Part shown: one piece after another, positions 52,545 through 64,000 of the stretch
Layout: the number at the start of each line of letters is the position of its first letter
Position numbering within the stretch: position 1 is the first letter of the stretch
Assembly (NCBI GenBank): GCA_004298115.1
Contig: SCRJ01000045.1
Location: forward strand, 1 to 64,000
DNA from: Acidobacteriota bacterium
GTDB lineage: Bacteria > Acidobacteriota > Thermoanaerobaculia > Thermoanaerobaculales > Thermoanaerobaculaceae
Length of the DNA: 64,000 nucleotides
Direction of reading: 5' to 3'
Made by a program: the position numbers and the translations under genes
The notes under the pieces: generated by a model
Told to the model about the DNA's origin: nothing
The model's input: only the letters and a program-made list of their open reading frames with translations
Databases searched by the model: none

Positions 52545-52613
52545 GCGCCGGCACGGCTGCACGCCTCGAGCGTGGCGGCCCTGCCTGGCGGCGCAGCGGT
52601 CGATTTCTCAGCT

Positions 52614-52690
52614 GTCATCCCCGCGAACGCGGGATCCAGGCGAGGCCGGTCGCGCGCCCATGACCGGATTCCCGCCGGCGCGGGAATGAC
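52614..52690. repeat. REPIN-like double-hairpin element, copy 1
   Basis: Starts GTCATCCCCGCG and ends CGCGGGAATGAC, so the two ends are inverted copies with one mismatch. Inside, each end forms its own small hairpin (CCCGCGAACGCGGG; TTCCCGCCGGCGCGGGAA) with a 25-30-base middle. A second copy of nearly the same length is at 63891-63968. Confidence 0.85.
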
Positions 52691-52714
52691 GGCAGAGAGG
52701 CGCGCTCGGGCCTC

Positions 52715-52880
52715 ACCACGGACCCCGGACCACCGACCACGGACCACCGACCACGGACCCCGGACCACCGACCACGGACCACGGACCACGGACCACTGAC
52801 TACTGACCACGGACCACGGACCACGGGCCACGGACCCCGGACCACGGACCACGGACCACGGATCACGGACCACGGGCCAC
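52715..52880. repeat. Degenerate 7-bp array based on GGACCAC
   Basis: About 23 heptamer units. Variants include GGACCCC, GGACCAC, CGACCAC, TGACCAC, TGACTAC, GGGCCAC and GGATCAC. The period is kept throughout while single bases have drifted, suggesting an old expansion of the same unit as at 42361-42419. Confidence 0.9.
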
Positions 52881-52949
52881 GCTCCTGTGTTGCGGTAAGA
52901 TCATCGGTAGTCAGGACGACAGGCGCGGACTCGGCAGCGGGAGGTGGGC

Positions 52950-54108: not shown

Positions 54109-54136
54109 TTGACACGGTTCGTGTCGCTGCGATAGC
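54109..54136 (+). promoter_or_regulatory. Promoter of the tryptophan operon
   Basis: TTGACA (54109-54114) and GATAGC (54131-54136) with a 16-base spacer, in TGCGATAGC context. The predicted start lies only a few bases before the leader ATG at 54146, so the leader peptide would have an extremely short 5' UTR. The -10 is weak. Confidence 0.5.
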
Positions 54137-54145
54137 GTCTCGGCC

Positions 54146-54205
54146 ATGCGGTACCTTGGTGTTGCTCGGCATCGTGACGGCTGGCGCTGGCCCGTGCGGC
54201 GGTAG
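54146..54205 (+). CDS. trpL: trp leader peptide
   Basis: A 19-codon [22 protein letters not shown], ending in TAG at 54203-54205. Two Trp codons (54182-54184 and 54188-54190) separated by one codon lie seven and five codons before the stop, the classic layout of attenuator leaders, where ribosome stalling at Trp codons senses charged tRNA-Trp. It stands directly downstream of the promoter and directly upstream of mutually exclusive hairpins, before the aroDE-trp genes. There is no clear Shine-Dalgarno, in line with a leaderless start. Confidence 0.78.
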
Positions 54206-54297
54206 GCGGGGCGTGCCGTCCCCGCTTGGCCGCCGGGCGCAAGCGGGGAGACAAGGTGGAAACGGACCACAACCTCCCCGCTCCCGGCGGGGAGGTT
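54206..54297 (+). promoter_or_regulatory. trp attenuator with mutually exclusive hairpins
   Basis: Five pairing segments: A GCGGGG (54206-54211), B CCCCGCTT (54220-54227), C AAGCGGGGAG (54241-54250), D AACCTCCCCGCT (54271-54282), E GCGGGGAGGTT (54287-54297). A pairs with B; B also pairs with C (8 bp); C also pairs with D (9 bp); D also pairs with E (11 bp, 5-base loop). A ribosome stalled at Trp leaves A-B and C-D (read-through); a ribosome reaching the stop covers A, allowing B-C and D-E. D-E lacks a real T tract but holds the GGGGAGG of aroDE, so it may block translation as well as transcription. Confidence 0.72.
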
Positions 54298-54304
54298 TGA
54301 GTTG

Positions 54305-55801
54305 ATGGAGATCGTTGCCACCTTCGTTCCGAGCGGCCGCGGCGACCCCGCCGAGGAGCTGCGGCGCCCGCCTGCGGGCGCCACCATGGTCGAGTTGCGC
54401 GCCGACCTGATCGACGCCGGCGCCGACATCGGCGGCTTGGTCGGCGCCGCCGGCCTCCCGACCGTCGTGACGCTGCGCTCGCGTGCCGAGGGGGGCGAGG
54501 GGCCCGACGACCCGGCCGGGCGGCGCCGGTTCTTCGAGCGCGCGGCGTCGTCGTCCGCCGCGTTCGTGGACCTCGAGGCGGCGCGCGACCGCGACCTGGT
54601 GGACGCCGTCGTCCCGCGCGACCGGGTGATCCTCTCCGCGCACTTCGGCGCCGGGGTGCCGGCCGACCTCGAGGAGCGCGCCGCCGCGCTGCTCGCGGCG
54701 GGGACGCGGTTCGTCAAGATCGTTCCCGCGGCGCGGAGCCTGACGGACGTCGAAGCGGTGCTGCGCCTGGCGAACGCGTTCGATCGCGGCGCGCGGGCGG
54801 GCCGCCGCGCCGTGCTGTTCGCCTCCGGCGAGCTCGGTCGCGCGACCCGCCTGCTCGGCCCGCTGCTGGGAGCGCCGCTCGCCTACGCCGCCTGGGCGCC
54901 GGAGCGTCGCGCCGCGCCCGGCCAGTACCTTCCGGAAGAGATCGACGCCTTGATCGGCCACCTGGGCGGCCGGCCGCGCCGGCTCTTCGCGGTCCTCGGC
55001 AGGCCCGTGGCCGGCTCGCTCTCGCCGCGCATCCACGCCGCCGCCTACCGCGCCCTCGGGCTGCCGAACGTCTTCGTTCCTCTCGACGTGGCGGCGGCCG
55101 CGGAGCTCGACGGCCTGCTCGTTCCGGCGGGGGCGTCGTGGCTCGACGCGCTCGGGCTGGCGGCCGGCGGCTTCGCCGTGACGATGCCGTGGAAAGAGGA
55201 AGCCGCGCGCCGGTGCACGCTGCTCGCGCCGCGGGCACAGCGCGCCGGCGCCGCGAACACGGTGTTGCCGCGCGCGGGGAAGGTGCTCGGCGACTGCACC
55301 GACATGGACGGCATCACGCGCGTGCTCGCCGAGGAGGGCGTGAGCCTCGCCGGCGCCGGCGCTCTCGTGCTCGGGGCGGGCGGCGCGGCGCGCGCGGCAA
55401 CCGTGGCCCTGCGGCTCGGCGGCGCCGAGGTGGCGATCGCCGCGCGGGACGGGGAGCTGGGGGCGGCCGCGGCCCGCCGCCTGGGCGTTACCTCCGCCGA
55501 GGTCGCGGCGAGCGAGCGCGTCGCCGTCGTGGTCAACGCGACGCCCGCCGGCGCCGACGGCGAGGGCTCGCCGTGGCTGGAGGCGTTGCGGCTTCCGGCG
55601 GGAGGCGTGGTCGTGGACCTGCCCTACGGTCCCCGGCCGACCTTCCTCGAGCAGCTCGCCGAGCGCCGCGGCTGGCGCTACGTCTCCGGCCGCGAGGTGC
55701 TGCTCTTCCAGGCCGTGTCGCAGTTCGCGGCGATGACCGGAGCGGCGCCGCCGGTGCGGGCGATGGCGGCCGCGCTCGGCCTCGGGGAGGCGGCGCCGTG
55801 A
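54305..55801 (+). CDS. aroDE: Bifunctional 3-dehydroquinate dehydratase (type I)/shikimate dehydrogenase
   Basis: 498 residues. The N-terminal domain (1-220) is type I dehydroquinase with the Schiff-base Lys in RFVKIVP (K138) and catalytic His in ILSAHFG (H113). The C-terminal domain (225-498) is shikimate dehydrogenase: GSLSPRIH substrate loop, MPWKEEA with K297, CTDMDG with D333 and the NADP loop [11 protein letters not shown]. The expected Asn after the SLSPxxH motif is Ala. It supplies shikimate toward chorismate, feeding the trp enzymes. ATG 54305 or TTG 54302, both served by GGGGAGG, which lies in the attenuator stem. Confidence 0.93.
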
Positions 55802-55946
55802 GCGGCGCGGAGCGGCGGCCCGGGGGTCGCGGTGGAAAGCGCCGCCGCCTTGCGGGAGAATGGGTCGGATCCGACGGCAGTGCGGTTCGCGGCGTTCGCC
55901 AAGGGCGTCGCGGCCGGTGCGCCGGGACGCACCTGGGGAGGACGCG

Positions 55947-57227
55947 ATGAAGATCTGGCAAAGCGGCGAAGAGAAGGGCGAGCGCTACCTGCAGCAGCTG
56001 GAGGCGCGGTACGCCCGACTGTTTCCGGCTCAGCTCGACGAGAAGGCGCGCCGGACGGTGGCCGCCGTGGCCAAACAGGGGGACAAGGCCCTGGTGGCGT
56101 ACGTGCGCCGGCTCGACCTCAAGGGACGCCCGACCGAAGGGTTCCGGCTCCACGGGACGGTGGCTGGCGGGGAGGACGTCGGGGAGGAGTTCGTCAACGC
56201 CGTCGAGCTCGCGCTCGCCAACCTCAAGGGCTTTCACGAGCCGCAAGCCGTGAAGGGCTTCACGCCGGAGGGCGACGACGGCCTGGGGATCAGGGTGCGG
56301 CCGATCGAATCGCTCGGGGTCTACGTGGCGGACGGCTCTGCGGCGTCGCTGGCGTCGCTCCTGACGGCGGTGGTGCCGGCGCGCATCGCGGGGGTGTCGC
56401 GGATCGCGGTGGCGACCCCGCCGCGCGCGTTCCTGGCCTCGCCGCAGCTGCGCTACCTGCTCGACCGCCTCGACCTCCGCGAGATCTACCTGATGGGCGG
56501 CGCGCACGCCGTGGCCGCGCTCGCCTACGGCACCGACTCGGTCGCGCCGGTGGACAAGATCGTCGGCGCCGGCGGGCGCATGGTGGCGGCGGCGAAGCGC
56601 GCGGTCTGCGGCGTGGTGGGCGTCGACGCCGCGGCGGACCCCTATGAGATGGTGATCGTCGCCGATGCCCGCGCCGAGGCGGAGATCGCCGCCGGCGACC
56701 TGCTCGCCGCGGCCGGCCGGGACGAGGACGCGCTCGCGGTCCTGGTGACGTCGTCGAAGAGCCTGGCCGCGAAGGTGGAACGGCGCGTCGCCGCGCGGGT
56801 GCGGGCGCTGCCGAGGAAGCATCCGGCGCGTTCGGCGCTCAAGAACTGGGGCGCCATCGTGCTCGTCCCCGATCTCGACGCCGCGGCGGAGGTGGTCAAC
56901 CGCATCGCGCCGCAGCACGTCGAGCTGCTCGTCGCCGAGCCGCTGCGGGTGCAAGATCTCATCGAGCGTGCGGGGATGGTGTCCGTGGGGCCGTGGTCGC
57001 CGCCCGCGCTCGCCGACCTCGTGCTCGGCGGCGGCCTGAGCCTGCCGGCCGCGGGCGGCGCGCGCTTCGCCTCGCCGCTCGGGGTGTGGGACTTCGTGCG
57101 CCGGACGGTTGTCGCCCGCGCCGCGGCCCACCGCTACCCGGCGCTCGCGCGGGCCGCCGCGGCGCTGGCGCCGAAGGACGAGCTGCACGAGGAAGCGCTG
57201 CGCGCCGGCAGCCGGGGCACGATGTGA
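55947..57227 (+). CDS. HisD-family protein lacking histidinol dehydrogenase active-site residues
   Basis: 426 residues, full HisD length and fold pattern (GVYVADGS, MGGAHAVAALAYGT, VDKIVGAGG). Key residues of E. coli HisD are changed: catalytic Glu326-His327 is Q323-H324 (APQHVEL), zinc ligands Gln259 and His262 are A255 and R258 (LLAAAGRD), and His367 is L364. Asp360 (D357) is kept and H414 may match His419. The P-G-G of the NAD region is A-D-G. So zinc-dependent oxidation of histidinol is unlikely, and I give no function. GGGGAGG stands 5 bases before ATG. It sits between aroDE and trpE; the 145-base gap upstream is the largest in the operon. Confidence 0.85.
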   Translation: MKIWQSGEEKGERYLQQLEARYARLFPAQLDEKARRTVAAVAKQGDKALVAYVRRLDLKGRPTEGFRLHGTVAGGEDVGEEFVNAVELALANLKGFHEPQAVKGFTPEGDDGLGIRVRPIESLGVYVADGSAASLASLLTAVVPARIAGVSRIAVATPPRAFLASPQLRYLLDRLDLREIYLMGGAHAVAALAYGTDSVAPVDKIVGAGGRMVAAAKRAVCGVVGVDAAADPYEMVIVADARAEAEIAAGDLLAAAGRDEDALAVLVTSSKSLAAKVERRVAARVRALPRKHPARSALKNWGAIVLVPDLDAAAEVVNRIAPQHVELLVAEPLRVQDLIERAGMVSVGPWSPPALADLVLGGGLSLPAAGGARFASPLGVWDFVRRTVVARAAAHRYPALARAAAALAPKDELHEEALRAGSRGTM

Positions 57228-57273
57228 GCGCCGCCAAGCCGGGCCGGGGACGTTTCCCCGCCGGGAGCCGCCG

Positions 57274-58748
57274 TTGATCCGTCCGTCGCGCGAGCGGTTC
57301 GCGGAGCTGGCGAAGAGCCACCGGCTCGTGCCGGTGGTGCGCGAGCTGACCGCGGACACCGTCACGCCGACCGGGATGCTGCTGCGCCTGGCGCGCGCCG
57401 GCCGCCACCCGTTCCTGCTCGAGAGCGTCGAGGGTGGCGAGCGCGTCGCGCGCTGGTCGTTCGCCGGCGCCGACCCGGCGCGAATCGTCACGGTGCGCGG
57501 CGGGAAGGCGTCCGTGGACGGCGCCGAGGCGGCCGCGCCGCCGCTCGAGGTGCTGCGGGAGGCGGTCATGGCGCGCGGCCGCGCGCCGGTGGAGGACCTG
57601 CCGCCGTTCGCGGGCGGCGCGGTCGGCTGGCTCGGCTACGACGCGGTGCGGCTGATCGAGCGGCTCCCGGCGCACCTCCCCGACCCGCTCGGCCTGCCGG
57701 ACGCGTGGTTCGCCGTCTACCCGACGGTCGCGGCGCTCGACCGCGCCCGCCAACGCCTGCTCCTGATCGCCACGGTCGCGGTGGAGGACGGCGCCGACGC
57801 CGCGTACGCCCGCGCCGTCGCCGCGCTGGACCGCCTCGAGGGCGTGCTGGCGTCCCCGCTCGACGAGGCCCGGCCGGCGCCGCTCCCGGTGGCGGACGCG
57901 TCCCTCCAGCCCGACCTCTCGTGGCAGGTCGCCCCCGACGACGACCGCTTCCTCGCGGCGGTTGCGCTCGCGCGGGAGGAGATCCGCGCCGGCGAGTGCT
58001 TCCAGATCGTGCTCTCCCGCCGCTGGTCGCGGCCGAGCCCGGCCTCGCCGATCGCGCTCTACCGGGCGCTGCGCCTGGCCAACCCCTCGCCGTACATGTT
58101 CTACCTCGACGCGGGCGAGGCCCAGATCCTCGGTTCCTCCCCGGAGACCCTGGCGCGGCTGCGCGGGACCCAGGCGGGGACCTGTCCGATCGCGGGGACG
58201 CGGCGGCGCGGGCGCACGGCCGCCGAGGACGCTCGGCTGGCCGCGGAGTTGCTGGCGGACGAGAAGGAGCGGGCCGAGCACCTGATGCTCGTCGACCTCG
58301 GTCGCAACGACATCGGCAAGATCGCGCGCGCCGGTACGGTCAACGTGACGCGCTTCATGGAGGTCGAGCGCTACTCCCAGGTCATGCACCTGACGAGCGA
58401 GGTCACCGGGGAGCTGGAAGCGGGGCGCGCGGCGCTCGACGTGCTGCTCGCGTGCTTCCCGGCCGGGACCCTGACCGGCGCACCGAAGGTGCGGGCGATG
58501 CAGCTGATCGAGCAGCTGGAAGTCGTGCGCCGCGGCGTGTACGGCGGCGCCGTCGGGTACTTCGACTTCGGCGGCGACATGGACGCCTGCATCGCGATCC
58601 GCACGGCGGTGGCGGCGGGCGGCGCCGTCCACGTGCAGGCGGGCGCGGGGATCGTCTTCGACTCGCTGCCCGAGAGCGAGCTCGCCGAGTGCGGCAACAA
58701 GGCGCGGGCGCTCGCCCTGGCCGTGCTGCTGGCGGAAGGGATGCGGTC

Positions 58749-58752
<4 letters not shown>
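57274..58752 (+). CDS. trpE: Anthranilate synthase component I
   Basis: 492 residues. The N-terminal feedback site has FLLESVEGG (LLES binds tryptophan) and the catalytic domain carries CFQIVLSRRW, NPSPYMFYLD, CPIAGTRRRGR, MLVDLGRNDIGKIA, LLACFPAGTLTGAPKVRAMQ and VQAGAGIVFDSLPESE. It converts chorismate with ammonia from TrpG to anthranilate. It starts with TTG (GGGAG 6 bases upstream). The last bases overlap trpG (GTGA). Confidence 0.96.
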
Positions 58753-59335
<583 letters not shown>

Positions 59336-59339
<4 letters not shown>

Positions 59340-60361
59340 TCCGGGACCTGCTCGAGCCGTTGCTGGCGGGCGAGGACCTGCCCGCCGAGACGACGGAAGC
59401 CTGCTTCACGGCGCTGATGGCCGGCGAGTGGTCGGAGCCGGAGCAGGCCGCCTTCCTGATCGCGCTGCGGGCCAAGGGCGAGACCCCCGGCGAGGTGGCC
59501 GCGGCGGCCCGCGTGCTGCGCGCGTTCGCGGTCGCGGTCCCCAGCAGCCGGGCGCCCCTCGTCGACACCTGCGGCACGGGCGGCGACGGCGCCCACACCC
59601 TCAACATCTCGACCGGCGCGGCGTTCGTGGCCGCGGCCTGCGGCGTCGCGGTGGCCAAACACGGCAACCGCTCGGTGTCGTCGAGGTGCGGCTCCGCCGA
59701 CGTGGTCGAGGCGCTCGGGGTGCCGCTCGAGCTCGAGCCCGAGCGGCTCGGGGCGCTCCTCGACGAGGTGGGGTTCGCGTTCCTGTTCGCGCCGCGGCTG
59801 CACCCGGCGATGCGCGCCGTGATGCCGGTGCGCCGCGTGCTCGGCGTGCGCACGGTGTTCAACCTCCTGGGGCCGCTCGCGAACCCCGCCGGCGTGCGGC
59901 GGCAGGTCGTCGGCGTCTACAGCCGCGCGGTGATGGGGCTGGTCGCCGGCGCGCTCGCCGAGCTGGGGGCCGAGCACGCCTGGGTCGTGCACGGCCACGA
60001 CGGGCTCGACGAGCTGTCGGTGTGCGCCCCGACGGCCGTGATCGAGGTGCGCGACGGAGCCGTTGCGAGCGAGACGGTTGTCGAGCCGGAGGCGCTCGGC
60101 ATCCGCCGCGCCGACCGCGCCGAGCTGGCCGGCGGCGGTGCGGCGGAGAACGCCGCCAGGCTGCGGGCGATCCTCGCGGGCGAGGAGCGCTCCGCCGCCG
60201 CGGACGCGGTCGCGCTCAACGCCGCCGCCGCGCTGGTGGTGGCGGGAGCGGCGCCGGATCTCGCGGCGGGCCTTGCCCAGAGCCGGGCGAGCCTTGCCGC
60301 GGGCGCGCCGATGCGGACGCTTGCCGCGGTGATCCGCGCCGCGCGGAGGGTCGCGCCGTGA
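59336..60361 (+). CDS. trpD: Anthranilate phosphoribosyltransferase
   Basis: 341 residues. PRPP-binding DTCGTGGDGAHTLNISTGAAF and VAKHGNRSVSSRCGSADVVEALG, then FLFAPRLHPAMRAVMPVRRVLGVRTVFNLLGPLANPAG, are diagnostic. It joins anthranilate to PRPP. GTG start in a GTGA overlap with trpG; the stop overlaps trpC in the same way. Confidence 0.96.
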
Positions 60362-61161
60362 GCGCGCTCGAGCCCGACATCCTGGTGCGGATCACCGACG
60401 CGGTCCGCGACCGGCTGGCGGCCGAGCCGGCGCCGGCCGGCCTCGAGGCGCGGGCGCGCGAGGCGGCGGGGGTCCGCCGGCGCGAGGGGCGGCGCAGCCT
60501 GCTCGCGGCGCTGGAAGCCCCCGGCGTGCGGGTGATCGCGGAGTGCAAGCGGCGCTCGCCGTCGAAGGGGTGGTTGCGGCAGCCGTTCGAGCCGGTCGAT
60601 CTGGCGCGAGCGTACGAAACCGGCGGCGCCGCCGCGGTGTCGGTCGTCACCGAACCGCAGTTCTTCGCGGGCCGGCCGGAGTGGGTGGCCGCCGTGCGGA
60701 GCGCGGTCGCGCTCCCGGTGATGCAGAAGGACTTCCTGCTGGCGCCGCGCCAGCTCTTCGAGGCCGTGCTCCTGGGCGCCGACGCGGTGCTGCTCATCGC
60801 CCGGGCGCTCCCGGGGCCGCACCTCGGCGAGATGCTGGGGCTCGCCGCGGAGCTCGGGCTCGAGGCGCTCGTGGAGGCGCACGACGCCCGCGACCTCGAC
60901 CGGGTGCTGGCGCTGCCGGCGCGCATCGTCGGGGTCAACGCCCGCGACCTGGGGAGCTTCCGGGTGGACCTCGAAGCCGCGGCGGGGCTGGCCCGGCGGG
61001 TCCCCCCCGGAAGCGTGGCCGTCGTGGAGAGCGGGATCGCCGGCGCGGGCGACGTGCGGCGCCTGGCGGCGGCGGGCCTGCGGCGCTTCCTCGTCGGCGA
61101 GCACCTGCTGCGCTCGACCGACCCGCACGCGGCGCTCGAGGAGCTGGTCGCGTGCGCGTGA
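60358..61161 (+). CDS. trpC: Indole-3-glycerol phosphate synthase
   Basis: 267 residues, a TIM barrel. VIAECKRRSPSKGWL (catalytic Glu and Lys), VSVVTEPQFFAG, VMQKDFLLAPRQLFEAVLLGADAVLLI, VGVNARDLGSF and VVESGIAGAGDVRRL give the complete active site. It closes the indole ring. Separate from trpF here (fused in enterobacteria). GTGA overlaps at both ends. Confidence 0.96.
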   Translation: MSALEPDILVRITDAVRDRLAAEPAPAGLEARAREAAGVRRREGRRSLLAALEAPGVRVIAECKRRSPSKGWLRQPFEPVDLARAYETGGAAAVSVVTEPQFFAGRPEWVAAVRSAVALPVMQKDFLLAPRQLFEAVLLGADAVLLIARALPGPHLGEMLGLAAELGLEALVEAHDARDLDRVLALPARIVGVNARDLGSFRVDLEAAAGLARRVPPGSVAVVESGIAGAGDVRRLAAAGLRRFLVGEHLLRSTDPHAALEELVACA

Positions 61162-61850
61162 CCGTCAAGATCTGCGGCCTCACGAACCTCGCCGACGCGT
61201 GCGCCGCCGTGGCGGCGGGGGCCGACTTCGTCGGGTTCCTCTTCGATCCGGGCTCGCGGCGGTTCGTCGGGCCGTCCCCGGCCTGGATCCGGGGCGTGGA
61301 GGGCGCGAGCAAGGTCGGCGTCTTCCGCAACCAGGACGTCGCGACCGTGGCGCGGGCACGGGAGGCGGCCGCCCTCGACATCGTGCAGCTCCACGGCGAC
61401 GAGCCGCCCGAGGCGTGCGCGGCGCTCGGAGGCCCGGCGCGCGTCATCAAGGCCGTCTCCGTGTCCGGCGTGGTGGACTGGGCCGTCGTGGCGCGCTACG
61501 CGCGGGTCGCCAGGATCCTCTTCGACACCGCATCGGCGGCGGGCGGCGGTACCGGCCGGACCTTCGACTGGGACGCGCTCGCCGGCGCGCCGGCGGGCCT
61601 CGAGTTCTGGCTGGCCGGCGGCCTCGACCCGGAGAACGTCGCCGCGGCCGTGGCGCGCGTCCGGCCGGCGGGCGTCGACGTCGCGAGCGGCGTCGAGGCC
61701 GCCGTCGGGCGCAAGGACGCCGCGAGGATGCGGGCGTTCGTGGCGGCCGCCCGCGGAGCCGGCCGCGGTCCGGCGGCGGGCCGTCCCGCCGGCGGAGGTG
61801 GTACGGTGCGCCGCGCGGGGCACGGGGGGGACGATGAAACCGGTACCTGA
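61158..61850 (+). CDS. trpF: Phosphoribosylanthranilate isomerase
   Basis: 230 residues. [12 protein letters not shown] contains the catalytic Cys; Asp is in [21 protein letters not shown], with [12 protein letters not shown] the phosphate-binding region, [10 protein letters not shown] and [10 protein letters not shown]. It isomerises phosphoribosylanthranilate. GTG at 61158 (GTGA overlap) is favoured over GTG 61152. The C-terminal tail (about 25 Gly/Arg-rich residues) runs 17 bases into trpB and is probably disordered. Confidence 0.94.
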
Positions 61851-63027
61851 CAGCCGAGGATACTTCGGGCCGTACGGCGGGCGCTTCGTGCCCGAGACGC
61901 TGATGGCGCCGCTTGCCGAGCTGACCGCCGCCTGGCAGGAGGCGCGGCGCGACCGCGCGTTCCGGCGCGAGCTCGCCGGCCTGCTCGCGACCTACTGCGG
62001 CCGCCCGACGCCGATCTCGCACGCGGCCCGGCTCACCCGACACCTCGGGGGGGCGCAGGTCTTCCTCAAGCGCGAGGACCTCTGCCACACCGGCGCCCAC
62101 AAGATCAACAACGCCGTCGGTCAGTGCCTGCTGGCGCGGCGGATGGGGAAGGTTCGCGTGATCGCCGAGACCGGCGCCGGCCAGCACGGCGTCGCGGTCG
62201 CCACCGCCGCCGCGCTGTTCGGGTTGCGCTGCCGGGTCTACATGGGGACCGAGGACGAGCGCCGCCAGGCGCTCAACGTGTTTCGGATGAAGCTGCTCGG
62301 CGCCGAGGTGGTGGGGGTCGACGCGGGCTCGCGGACGCTCAAGGACGCGATCAACGAGTCGCTCCGGGATTGGGTGACCAACGTCGCGACCACCCACTAC
62401 GTCCTCGGTTCCGTCCTGGGACCCCACCCCTACCCGTTGATGGTACGGGAGTTCCAGTCCGTGATCGGGAGCGAGGCGCTGCTCCAGATCCGCGCGCAAC
62501 ACCGCTCGCTCCCGAACCTGGTGGTCGCGTGCGTCGGCGGCGGCTCCAACGCCGCCGGGATCTTCTCCGCGTTCGTCCCGCACCGGCACGTCGAGCTGGT
62601 CGGGGTCGAGGCGGGCGGGCGCGGCACGCGGTTGGGGGAGCACGCGGCGCGCTTCGCCGGCGGGTCGCCCGGCGTCCTGCACGGGACGCGCAGCTACGTT
62701 CTCCAGGACCAGGACGGCCAGGTCAGCCCGACGCACTCGGTCTCGGCGGGGCTCGACTACCCCGCGGTCGGCCCCGAGCACGCGTACTGGCACGACTCCC
62801 GCCGCGTTTCGTACGTGCAGGTCGCCGACCGCGAGGCGCTCGACGCGTTTCACCTGCTCTCCGAGTTCGAAGGGATCGTGCCGGCGCTCGAGACCGCGCA
62901 CGCGATCGCCTACGTCGCGCGCGTCGCCCCGCGCATGGCGAGCGCTCAGGCCGTGCTCGTCAACCTCTCGGGGCGCGGCGACAAGGACGTGGTCGAGGTC
63001 GCGAGGCTCGAGGGGGTGACGCTATGA
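61834..63027 (+). CDS. trpB: Tryptophan synthase beta subunit
   Basis: 397 residues. The PLP lysine is in [61 protein letters not shown] and [15 protein letters not shown] are family motifs of TrpB type 1. It joins indole and serine. Chosen ATG 61834, with a GGGGGG stretch 3-8 bases upstream, fits the TrpB N-terminus ([17 protein letters not shown]). The last bases overlap trpA (ATGA). Confidence 0.97.
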
Positions 63028-63827
63028 GCGGACGGATCGACAAGGCGTTCGCCCGGGCCGGCAAGGCGAAGCGGGCCGCGTTCATCGCGTACATCACCGC
63101 GGGCGACCCGGCCCCGGCCCGGACCGTCGTGCTCGCGCGCGCCCTCGAGCGCGCCGGCGCCGACATCCTCGAGCTCGGGGTGCCGTTCACCGACCCGATC
63201 GCCGACGGCCCGACCAACCAGCGCGCCGCCGAGCGCGCGCTGGCGCAGGGGACGTCGCTTCCCGGCGTGCTCGGCATCGTGCGCGAGCTGCGCTACTCGA
63301 GCGAGCTGCCGGTCGTGCTGTTCACCTACTTCAACCCGGTGCACGCCTACGGGCTCGCCCGCTTCGCCGTCGACGCCGCCGCCGCCGGCGTGGACGGGGT
63401 GCTGTTCACCGACGTCCCGGTGGAGGAGGCGGGCGCGGCGCACGCGGCGCTGCGGCGGGTGGGCGTCGAGCTCGTCCTGCTGCTCGCGCCGACGTCCACG
63501 CGCGAGCGCGTCAAGGCGGTGCGCAAGCTCGCGGGGAGCTTCGTCTACTTCGTCGCCCGCGCCGGCGTTACCGGCGCCCGCGCGACCCTGGAGGAAGGGC
63601 TCGAGGAGCAGGTGCGTCTGGTCCGCAGGCTCACGAAGACCCGCGTGGCGGTGGGGTTCGGCGTCTCCACCCCGGACCAGGTTGCGCGCGCCGCCCGCTT
63701 CGCCGACGGGGTCGTCGTGGGCTCCGCCCTCGTCGAGCGCATCGCCGAGCTCGGGGACGCCCCGGAGCTGCCCGGCGAGATCGAAGCGCTCGCGAGGTCC
63801 CTCGCCATCGCGACCAGGAGGAAGTAG
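63024..63827 (+). CDS. trpA: Tryptophan synthase alpha subunit
   Basis: 267 residues, TIM barrel. Catalytic Glu and Asp lie in [35 protein letters not shown] and [30 protein letters not shown] form the phosphate pocket. The usual YxVSxxGVTG region reads [13 protein letters not shown]. It cleaves indole-glycerol phosphate and passes indole to TrpB. ATGA overlap with trpB. It is the last gene of the operon; repeats follow and I see no terminator before the window end. Confidence 0.96.
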
Positions 63828-63838
63828 AACCCCGAGGG

Positions 63839-63885
63839 CACCGGGCACCGGGCTCCGGGCTCCGGAGAGGCGTGGTCCGTGGTCC
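63839..63885. repeat. Two short 7-bp tandem arrays
   Basis: CACCGGG twice then CTCCGGG/CTCCGGA (63839-63866), and GTGGTCC twice (63872-63885), the reverse complement of the GGACCAC unit seen elsewhere. Both have period 7 and stand 5 bases before REPIN-like copy 2. Confidence 0.75.
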
Positions 63886-63890
63886 TTGTC

Positions 63891-63968
63891 GTCATCCCCG
63901 CGAACGCGGGGATCCAGGCCATGGCCCACGCGAGTCCGTGACTGGGTTCCCGCGTGCGCGGGAACGAC
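63891..63968. repeat. REPIN-like double-hairpin element, copy 2
   Basis: Begins GTCATCCCCGCGAACGCGGG and ends CGCGGGAACGAC, with a middle containing CCAGG and CTGGGTTCCCGCG. The two ends are inverted near-copies and the total length matches copy 1 within one base. It lies downstream of trpA. Confidence 0.85.
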
Positions 63969-64000
63969 CCTCCGGTTCTGTCCTCACGTCTCTTTCGGAC

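Follow-up and report, generated by a model that had tools for sequence, protein, structure and literature searches.

A putative ribosome-mediated attenuator with tryptophan and histidine sensor codons upstream of aro-his-trp operons in Thermoanaerobaculaceae

A 64,000-nucleotide stretch of DNA (hereafter the window) from an uncultured organism of the Thermoanaerobaculaceae (Acidobacteriota) contains the operon aroDE-hisD-trpEGDCFBA, all genes of which lie on the plus strand behind a short leader. The leader region is probably a ribosome-mediated attenuator of this operon, acting at a hairpin (D:E) both on transcription and on the aroDE Shine-Dalgarno sequence. Modeling of the region suggests that the operon is probably turned on when tryptophan is short. 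The sequence parts of the element, their conservation and co-variation, the spacing of the promoter and the switch in constrained folding were computed directly. A covariance model of the region detected the element in 13 genomes from five genera of the family, with one copy in each, and the 13 homologs are alike in promoter, leader, hairpins and gene position. The features of the window are listed in Table 1.

Table 1. Features of the leader region and the downstream operon in the window.
Feature	Position	Strand	Details
Sigma-70-type promoter	54109-54138	+	TTGACA 54109-54114; 18-nt spacer; TAGCGT 54133-54138
Leader peptide ORF	54146-54205	+	19 codons; candidate sensor Trp codons 54182-54184 (W13) and 54188-54190 (W15)
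Segment A	54197-54211	+	Arg18-Arg19 codons CGGCGG and stop TAG (54197-54205), GCGGGG 54206-54211; 5' arm of the A hairpin
Segment B	54220-54228	+	CCCCGCTTG; partner A or C
Segment C	54240-54250	+	CAAGCGGGGAG; partner B (candidate anti-antiterminator) or D (candidate antiterminator)
Segment D	54271-54281	+	AACCTCCCCGC; partner C or E; core invariant
Segment E	54287-54297	+	GCGGGGAGGTT; holds the aroDE Shine-Dalgarno GGGGAGG 54289-54295
U-rich tail of the D:E hairpin (Shine-Dalgarno-to-start spacer)	54296-54304	+	TTTGAGTTG; U-tract interrupted
aroDE	54305-55801	+	Fused 3-dehydroquinate dehydratase/shikimate dehydrogenase
hisD homolog	55944-57227	+	TIGR00069, 318 bits; reading frame open, Zn-ligand and catalytic motifs gone
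trpE, trpG, trpD, trpC, trpF, trpB, trpA	57271-63827	+

Promoter and leader peptide

The initial annotation had proposed a 19-residue leader with two tryptophan codons, and the open reading frame upstream of aroDE reads in this way. At the tryptophan frequency of the operon's own proteins (0.84%), at least two tryptophans among 18 random residues are expected with a probability of about 0.01. Pooled over the homologs, 22 of the 219 leader residues are tryptophan and 30 of the 219 are histidine, as compared to only 0.8% and 1.7%, respectively, in the proteins of the window operon. The W-x-W motif is invariant in the five leaders of the window genus, and the residues before, between and after the two tryptophans vary; each of the two tryptophans keeps a constant distance to the stop codon in seven leaders from three genera, namely these five and those of G010 and G012. 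The terminal arginine codons and the stop codon, which are paired inside the A hairpin, are nearly constant across the leaders. The start codon, the stop codon, and either W-x-W or histidine runs are retained in 12 of the 13 homologs. The presence of tryptophan codons in homologous leaders, which had been suggested as a check on the attenuator proposal, was found in 11 of the 13; the other two, both from genus g6, carry four histidine codons.

A TTGACA box and a -10 element of the form TA-NNN-T are present in all 13 homologs. The -10 element and the start codon are separated by 7 nt in seven homologs, by 8 nt in four and by 9-10 nt in two, and the latter two also have an in-frame GTG located 3 nt upstream. 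As judged from this spacing, the expected transcription start coincides with the leader AUG or adjoins it in all 13 genomes, and the leader peptide is thus probably translated from a leaderless message. There is no room for a leader Shine-Dalgarno sequence, because the predicted transcription start adjoins the start codon.

Several repeats were recorded in the surrounding DNA. A tandem array of about 24 copies of the 7-bp unit ACCACGG lies in an intergenic region ahead of the operon, at positions 52715-52881 of the window, and palindromic-looking repeats of the dispersed REP-like kind, with translations such as WIPAFAGMT, are located at 52600-52700 and 63850-64000. Near the G011 leader, on the minus strand of locus L084 (2081-3086), there are about thirteen CRISPR-repeat-like matches (Rfam CRISPR-DR9, each below threshold), spaced mostly by 66-67 nt.

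Alternative pairing, co-variation and the folding switch

Segment A is predicted to form a hairpin with positions 54220-54235 (about -31 kcal/mol), a prediction that holds for all 13 sequences. The A:B helix comprises six perfect pairs, or nine when G-U pairs are included (TAGGCGGGG/CCCCGCTTG), and is extended by six more pairs through the two arginine codons (CGGCGG/CCGCCG). An exhaustive helix search gave 9-10 bp for B:C, 9 bp for C:D and 11-12 bp for D:E. A nested chain of at least 6/9/9/11 bp did not occur in any of 2000 dinucleotide shuffles of the region, and a relaxed chain of 6/8/8/9 occurred in one of 2000. Hence, the five mutually exclusive segments that had been described as pairing perfectly over 6-11 bases were recovered, with 6, 9, 9 and 11 perfect pairs for A:B, B:C, C:D and D:E, respectively. 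The minimum-free-energy z-score of a 202-nt fold of the region is modest (-2.1).

Compensatory changes had been predicted for segments B, C, D and E of related genomes. Since MAFFT misaligned segment B between genera, the segment cores served as anchors for scoring the pairing, in place of RNAalifold. In a partner-swap permutation test on ten diverse sequences, cognate segments paired more strongly than swapped ones for B:C (-20.3 vs. -17.6 kcal/mol, p = 0.007) and for C:D (-18.9 vs. -17.8 kcal/mol, p = 0.004), whereas the A:B result was borderline and only suggestive (p = 0.056); these p-values are to be taken loosely because the evolutionary events are few. The homologs are few in number, of common ancestry and from metagenome assemblies. 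For D:E (p = 0.19), the near-invariance of both segments leaves no useful co-variation. At the position B+3/C-3, UA, UG, CG and GC pairs are found, and two sequences are unpaired there. In both genomes of genus g6, segment C has a G-to-A change for which B and D carry compensating C-to-U changes; segment E likewise has a G-to-A change in G015 and keeps the G, giving a U-G pair, in G013.

The effect of the ribosome on this pairing was modeled by constrained folding of the RNA at the moment when D is completed, with the leading edge of the ribosome set 12 nt downstream of the first nucleotide of the codon in the A site. For the window, a stall at Trp13 gave a probability of 1.00 for C:D and 0.00 for B:C, and a stall at Trp15 gave 0.62 for C:D. 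With the ribosome at the stop codon the values were 0.88 for B:C and 0.12 for C:D, and C:D was again 1.00 when no ribosome was present. Most homologs switch in the same direction in folding, and stalls at histidine codons also favor C:D in G012, G015, G011 (at His11) and G016. The switch is poor in G010 and G014, inconsistent in G013, partial in G001 and G008, and broken in G006. In the full-length RNA at equilibrium, D:E is preferred in nearly all states, and therefore the decision must fall during transcription.

Proposed mechanism and its alternatives

From these features we infer a leaderless start, a response to tryptophan and termination at D:E, which would be combined as follows. RNA polymerase would start at or beside the leader AUG, and the leader peptide would be translated from the leaderless message. 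When charged tRNA-Trp is ample, the ribosome would reach the stop codon, cover A and free B; the formation of B:C would then make D available for E. The resulting D:E structure would serve as a terminator-like hairpin, whose U-rich tail runs up to the aroDE start codon, and as a lock on the aroDE Shine-Dalgarno sequence, turning the operon off. When tryptophan is short, the ribosome would stall at Trp13 (less cleanly at Trp15) and A:B would pair, so that C could capture D before E is made, and both transcription and aroDE translation would continue.

The location of the aroDE Shine-Dalgarno sequence within the off-hairpin, a point absent from the initial annotation, is common to all homologs: GGGGAGG is found in the E arm in 13 of 13, and the distance from GGAGG to the aroDE start codon is 7-9 nt in each. 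An exact-pattern search for the 3' end of the organism's own 16S rRNA yielded no match, and the anti-Shine-Dalgarno sequence was assumed. The spacer between the Shine-Dalgarno sequence and the start codon has a mean T content of 63% in the 13 leaders; the figure for 237 control spacers, taken from the window and from related loci, is 16%. The window has a standard terminator score of 12.8, and among the 13 homologs the score is positive in 10 and at or below zero in three. We favor the interpretation that D:E may terminate transcription and, in read-through RNA, hide the aroDE start site.

The copy of the element in G006 (L010, 1344-1510) has the appearance of a decayed attenuator, in which the stop codon TAG is replaced by TAC, one tryptophan codon is left, and the B:C pairing and the U-rich tail are lost, the tail being the least T-rich of the homologs. 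This copy may be a knockout that arose naturally, or it may result from faulty assembly.

Three other explanations were considered. The positive terminator scores, together with a layout that resembles the his attenuator with its extra hairpin (PMC1183508), would also suit an attenuator acting on transcription alone, like those of the E. coli trp and his operons; the Shine-Dalgarno sequence would then overlap E by coincidence and have no regulatory role. We regard this explanation as possible at best, since neither the GGGGAGG motif nor its spacing varies among the 13 homologs, and D:E necessarily covers the motif when read-through RNA refolds. Conversely, D:E could hide the aroDE Shine-Dalgarno sequence with no termination at all, and stalling would free it, as in a purely translational attenuator of the erm type. 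This would agree with the invariant E arm and its 7-9 nt distance to the start codon, with the interrupted U-tract, with the three homologs that lack a positive terminator score, and with the occurrence of terminator-like sites near chance level in sampled segments of the window. It is nevertheless rather unlikely, considering that the T-richness of the spacer goes beyond what Shine-Dalgarno spacing requires, and that the return to D:E at equilibrium would make a slow translational decision hard to hold open. Finally, that the hairpins are a mere operon-start terminator or structural element behind an ORF that arose by chance is highly improbable, for although GC-rich DNA folds readily and the folding z-score is only -2.1, the leader landmarks are kept in 12 of the 13 homologs, the promoter-to-start spacing is fixed and the alternative pairs co-vary.

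The preferred combination of transcriptional and translational control was compared to known systems. The extra segment A had been presented as a departure from the textbook four-segment design, and the element does have five segments as opposed to four in trpL; however, the fifth segment is no new design principle, because the enteric his attenuator has an extra hairpin that blocks read-through once the ribosome is released (PMC1183508). Like the his attenuator of E. coli and Salmonella, the element combines regulatory codons in a leader peptide, a terminator-like hairpin and an additional intermediate hairpin, which would prevent the antiterminator from forming after the ribosome leaves (PMC1183508). 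It differs in its tryptophan sensor (histidine or mixed in the relatives), in being probably leaderless, in using the Shine-Dalgarno sequence as a terminator arm, and in having no Rfam match: leader-family matches were absent from the window at the gathering threshold and from 11 loci at E-values up to 1. With E. coli trpL it shares two nearby tryptophan codons, a short leader ahead of trp genes, and a choice between termination and antitermination that would be made by leader translation. In contrast to trpL, the antiterminator is favored when the window RNA is folded without a ribosome, the operon opens with aroDE-hisD, and the terminator abuts the first start codon. The leaderless short ORFs of mycobacteria, which are candidate cysteine attenuators, are likewise short upstream ORFs in which codons for the end product are clustered, but they contain Cys rather than Trp or His codons, belong to another lineage, and have no described five-segment terminator/antiterminator (PMC4633059). 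The LEU element and the translational T-boxes of Actinobacteria also involve the Shine-Dalgarno sequences of amino-acid genes in leader or RNA structures; however, the Leu codons of the former pair with the Shine-Dalgarno sequence via a pseudoknot and T-boxes bind tRNA directly, and neither architecture is seen here (PMC1262725).

Sensor codons and operon content in the family

No copy of the element was found in other genomes of the class, or outside the family among 396 phylum-wide genomes, using strict filters by which weak matches can be missed. Family members with no match include G009, in which the contig ends inside aroDE, and G003 and G005, where aroDE was matched at the end of a contig. 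The named records with the element are Acidobacteria, Thermoanaerobaculaceae and Thermoanaerobaculum assemblies. A match in a record labeled Chloroflexi (L065) may be due to chance. In the neighboring family f2 the AroDE fusion is present, and no such leader was found in 16 loci (in L049 the upstream region is too short to judge). Several f2 loci (L046, L051, L056) have a hairpin followed by a T-run upstream of aroDE (e.g., GGCTCCC...GGGAGCCACTTTTTTG), with no Trp/His-rich leader ORF.

When aligned at the stop codon, the leaders outside the window genus read MRIETRRHHHHWHWTVRR in genus g3, MRMYGTHAHRHSTWAWPERR in g5, MNAMGYRTYGHWYWFHTPERR, MNAMGYRTYGHWYWFHTPGRR and MSNSVVALGRNCWHWYWVPVRR in g4, and MRAMGTTRHHHHVPPRR and MQAMGTTRHHHHGPPRR in g6, the last two with HHHH and no tryptophan. 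The control of shikimate steps, a HisD-like protein and all trp genes by one tryptophan signal, as initially suggested, is upheld for gene content, with an AroD-AroE fusion, HisD and TrpE/G/D/C/F/B/A all identified. As to the signal, the suggestion agrees with the leaders of the window genus and not with those of its relatives, which contain His and Trp, His, Trp and Tyr/Phe, or His codons only. Where the aro-his-trp operon of a relative is complete, the leader contains codon runs such as HHHHWHW or YGHWYWFH. In G010 and G012 the gene order is aroDE-hisZ-hisG-hisD-hisC-hisB-hisH-hisA-hisF-hisIE, followed by trpE and further trp genes, and the order in G011 is identical; the operon of the window genus contains only aroDE-hisD-trpEGDCFBA. 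Among the g6 genomes, G013 has aroDE, a hisG fragment, hisD, trpE and trpG, with trpA on a separate contig, and G015 has aroDE and hisG before the contig ends. We read the g6 leaders as appearing to extend the idea of an attenuator rather than refute it, because four histidine codons replace tryptophan and trpA is on another contig in G013, the contig of G015 being too short.

The window-type HisD has an open reading frame and a well-conserved sequence, yet both the Zn-ligand motif QAEH and the EH pair required for catalysis are gone in the window (QAEH to AAGR, EH to QH) as well as in G003, G005 and G007. QAEH or QTEH is retained in G001, G004, G006 and G008, although hisG and hisB are likewise missing there. 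Searches for hisG and hisB were negative in all nine genomes of the window genus, including six with a completeness of 90% or more, and the same searches were positive in controls and in sister genera. Since both genes are undetectable in every genome of the window genus, the gene content suggests that this genus is a histidine auxotroph. The HisD-like protein of the window, encoded in a genome with neither hisG nor hisB, is apparently a decaying relic; a pseudoenzyme with another role is a possible alternative.

Leader codons track operon content in outline, not strictly. A strict link between the number of histidine codons and the his genes was dropped, given that G008, with neither hisG nor hisB, has three histidine codons and G016, with both, has one. 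Multi-amino-acid leaders are known for the thr and ilv operons. Members of the family probably use one scaffold to respond to shortages of different amino acids, and a shortage of any one of these would suffice to open the operon. We lean, by a narrow margin, toward the view that one scaffold serves as an OR gate in fused aro-his-trp operons, where HHHHWHW, HRHSTWAW, YGHWYWFH and CWHWYW would sense shortage of His, Trp and perhaps Tyr/Phe, and that its specificity was re-edited codon by codon as the operons changed, leaving Trp with relict His in the window genus, which is devoid of hisG and hisB, and His only in the genus with trpA elsewhere (one genome being checkable). No precedent for a His+Trp leader on an aro-his-trp operon was found in the freely readable literature searched.

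The best-documented cases of leader-peptide attenuation come from Proteobacteria and Actinobacteria. The present analysis would add a case from Acidobacteriota, in an operon where genes of the shikimate, histidine and tryptophan pathways are combined. With the terminator, the Shine-Dalgarno sequence and the start codon overlapping within about 35 nt, one hairpin would act on both transcription and translation. The family constitutes a natural series in which one RNA scaffold carries sensor codons that differ as the gene content of the operon changes, and in which the evolution of regulatory specificity would be open to study by codon swaps.
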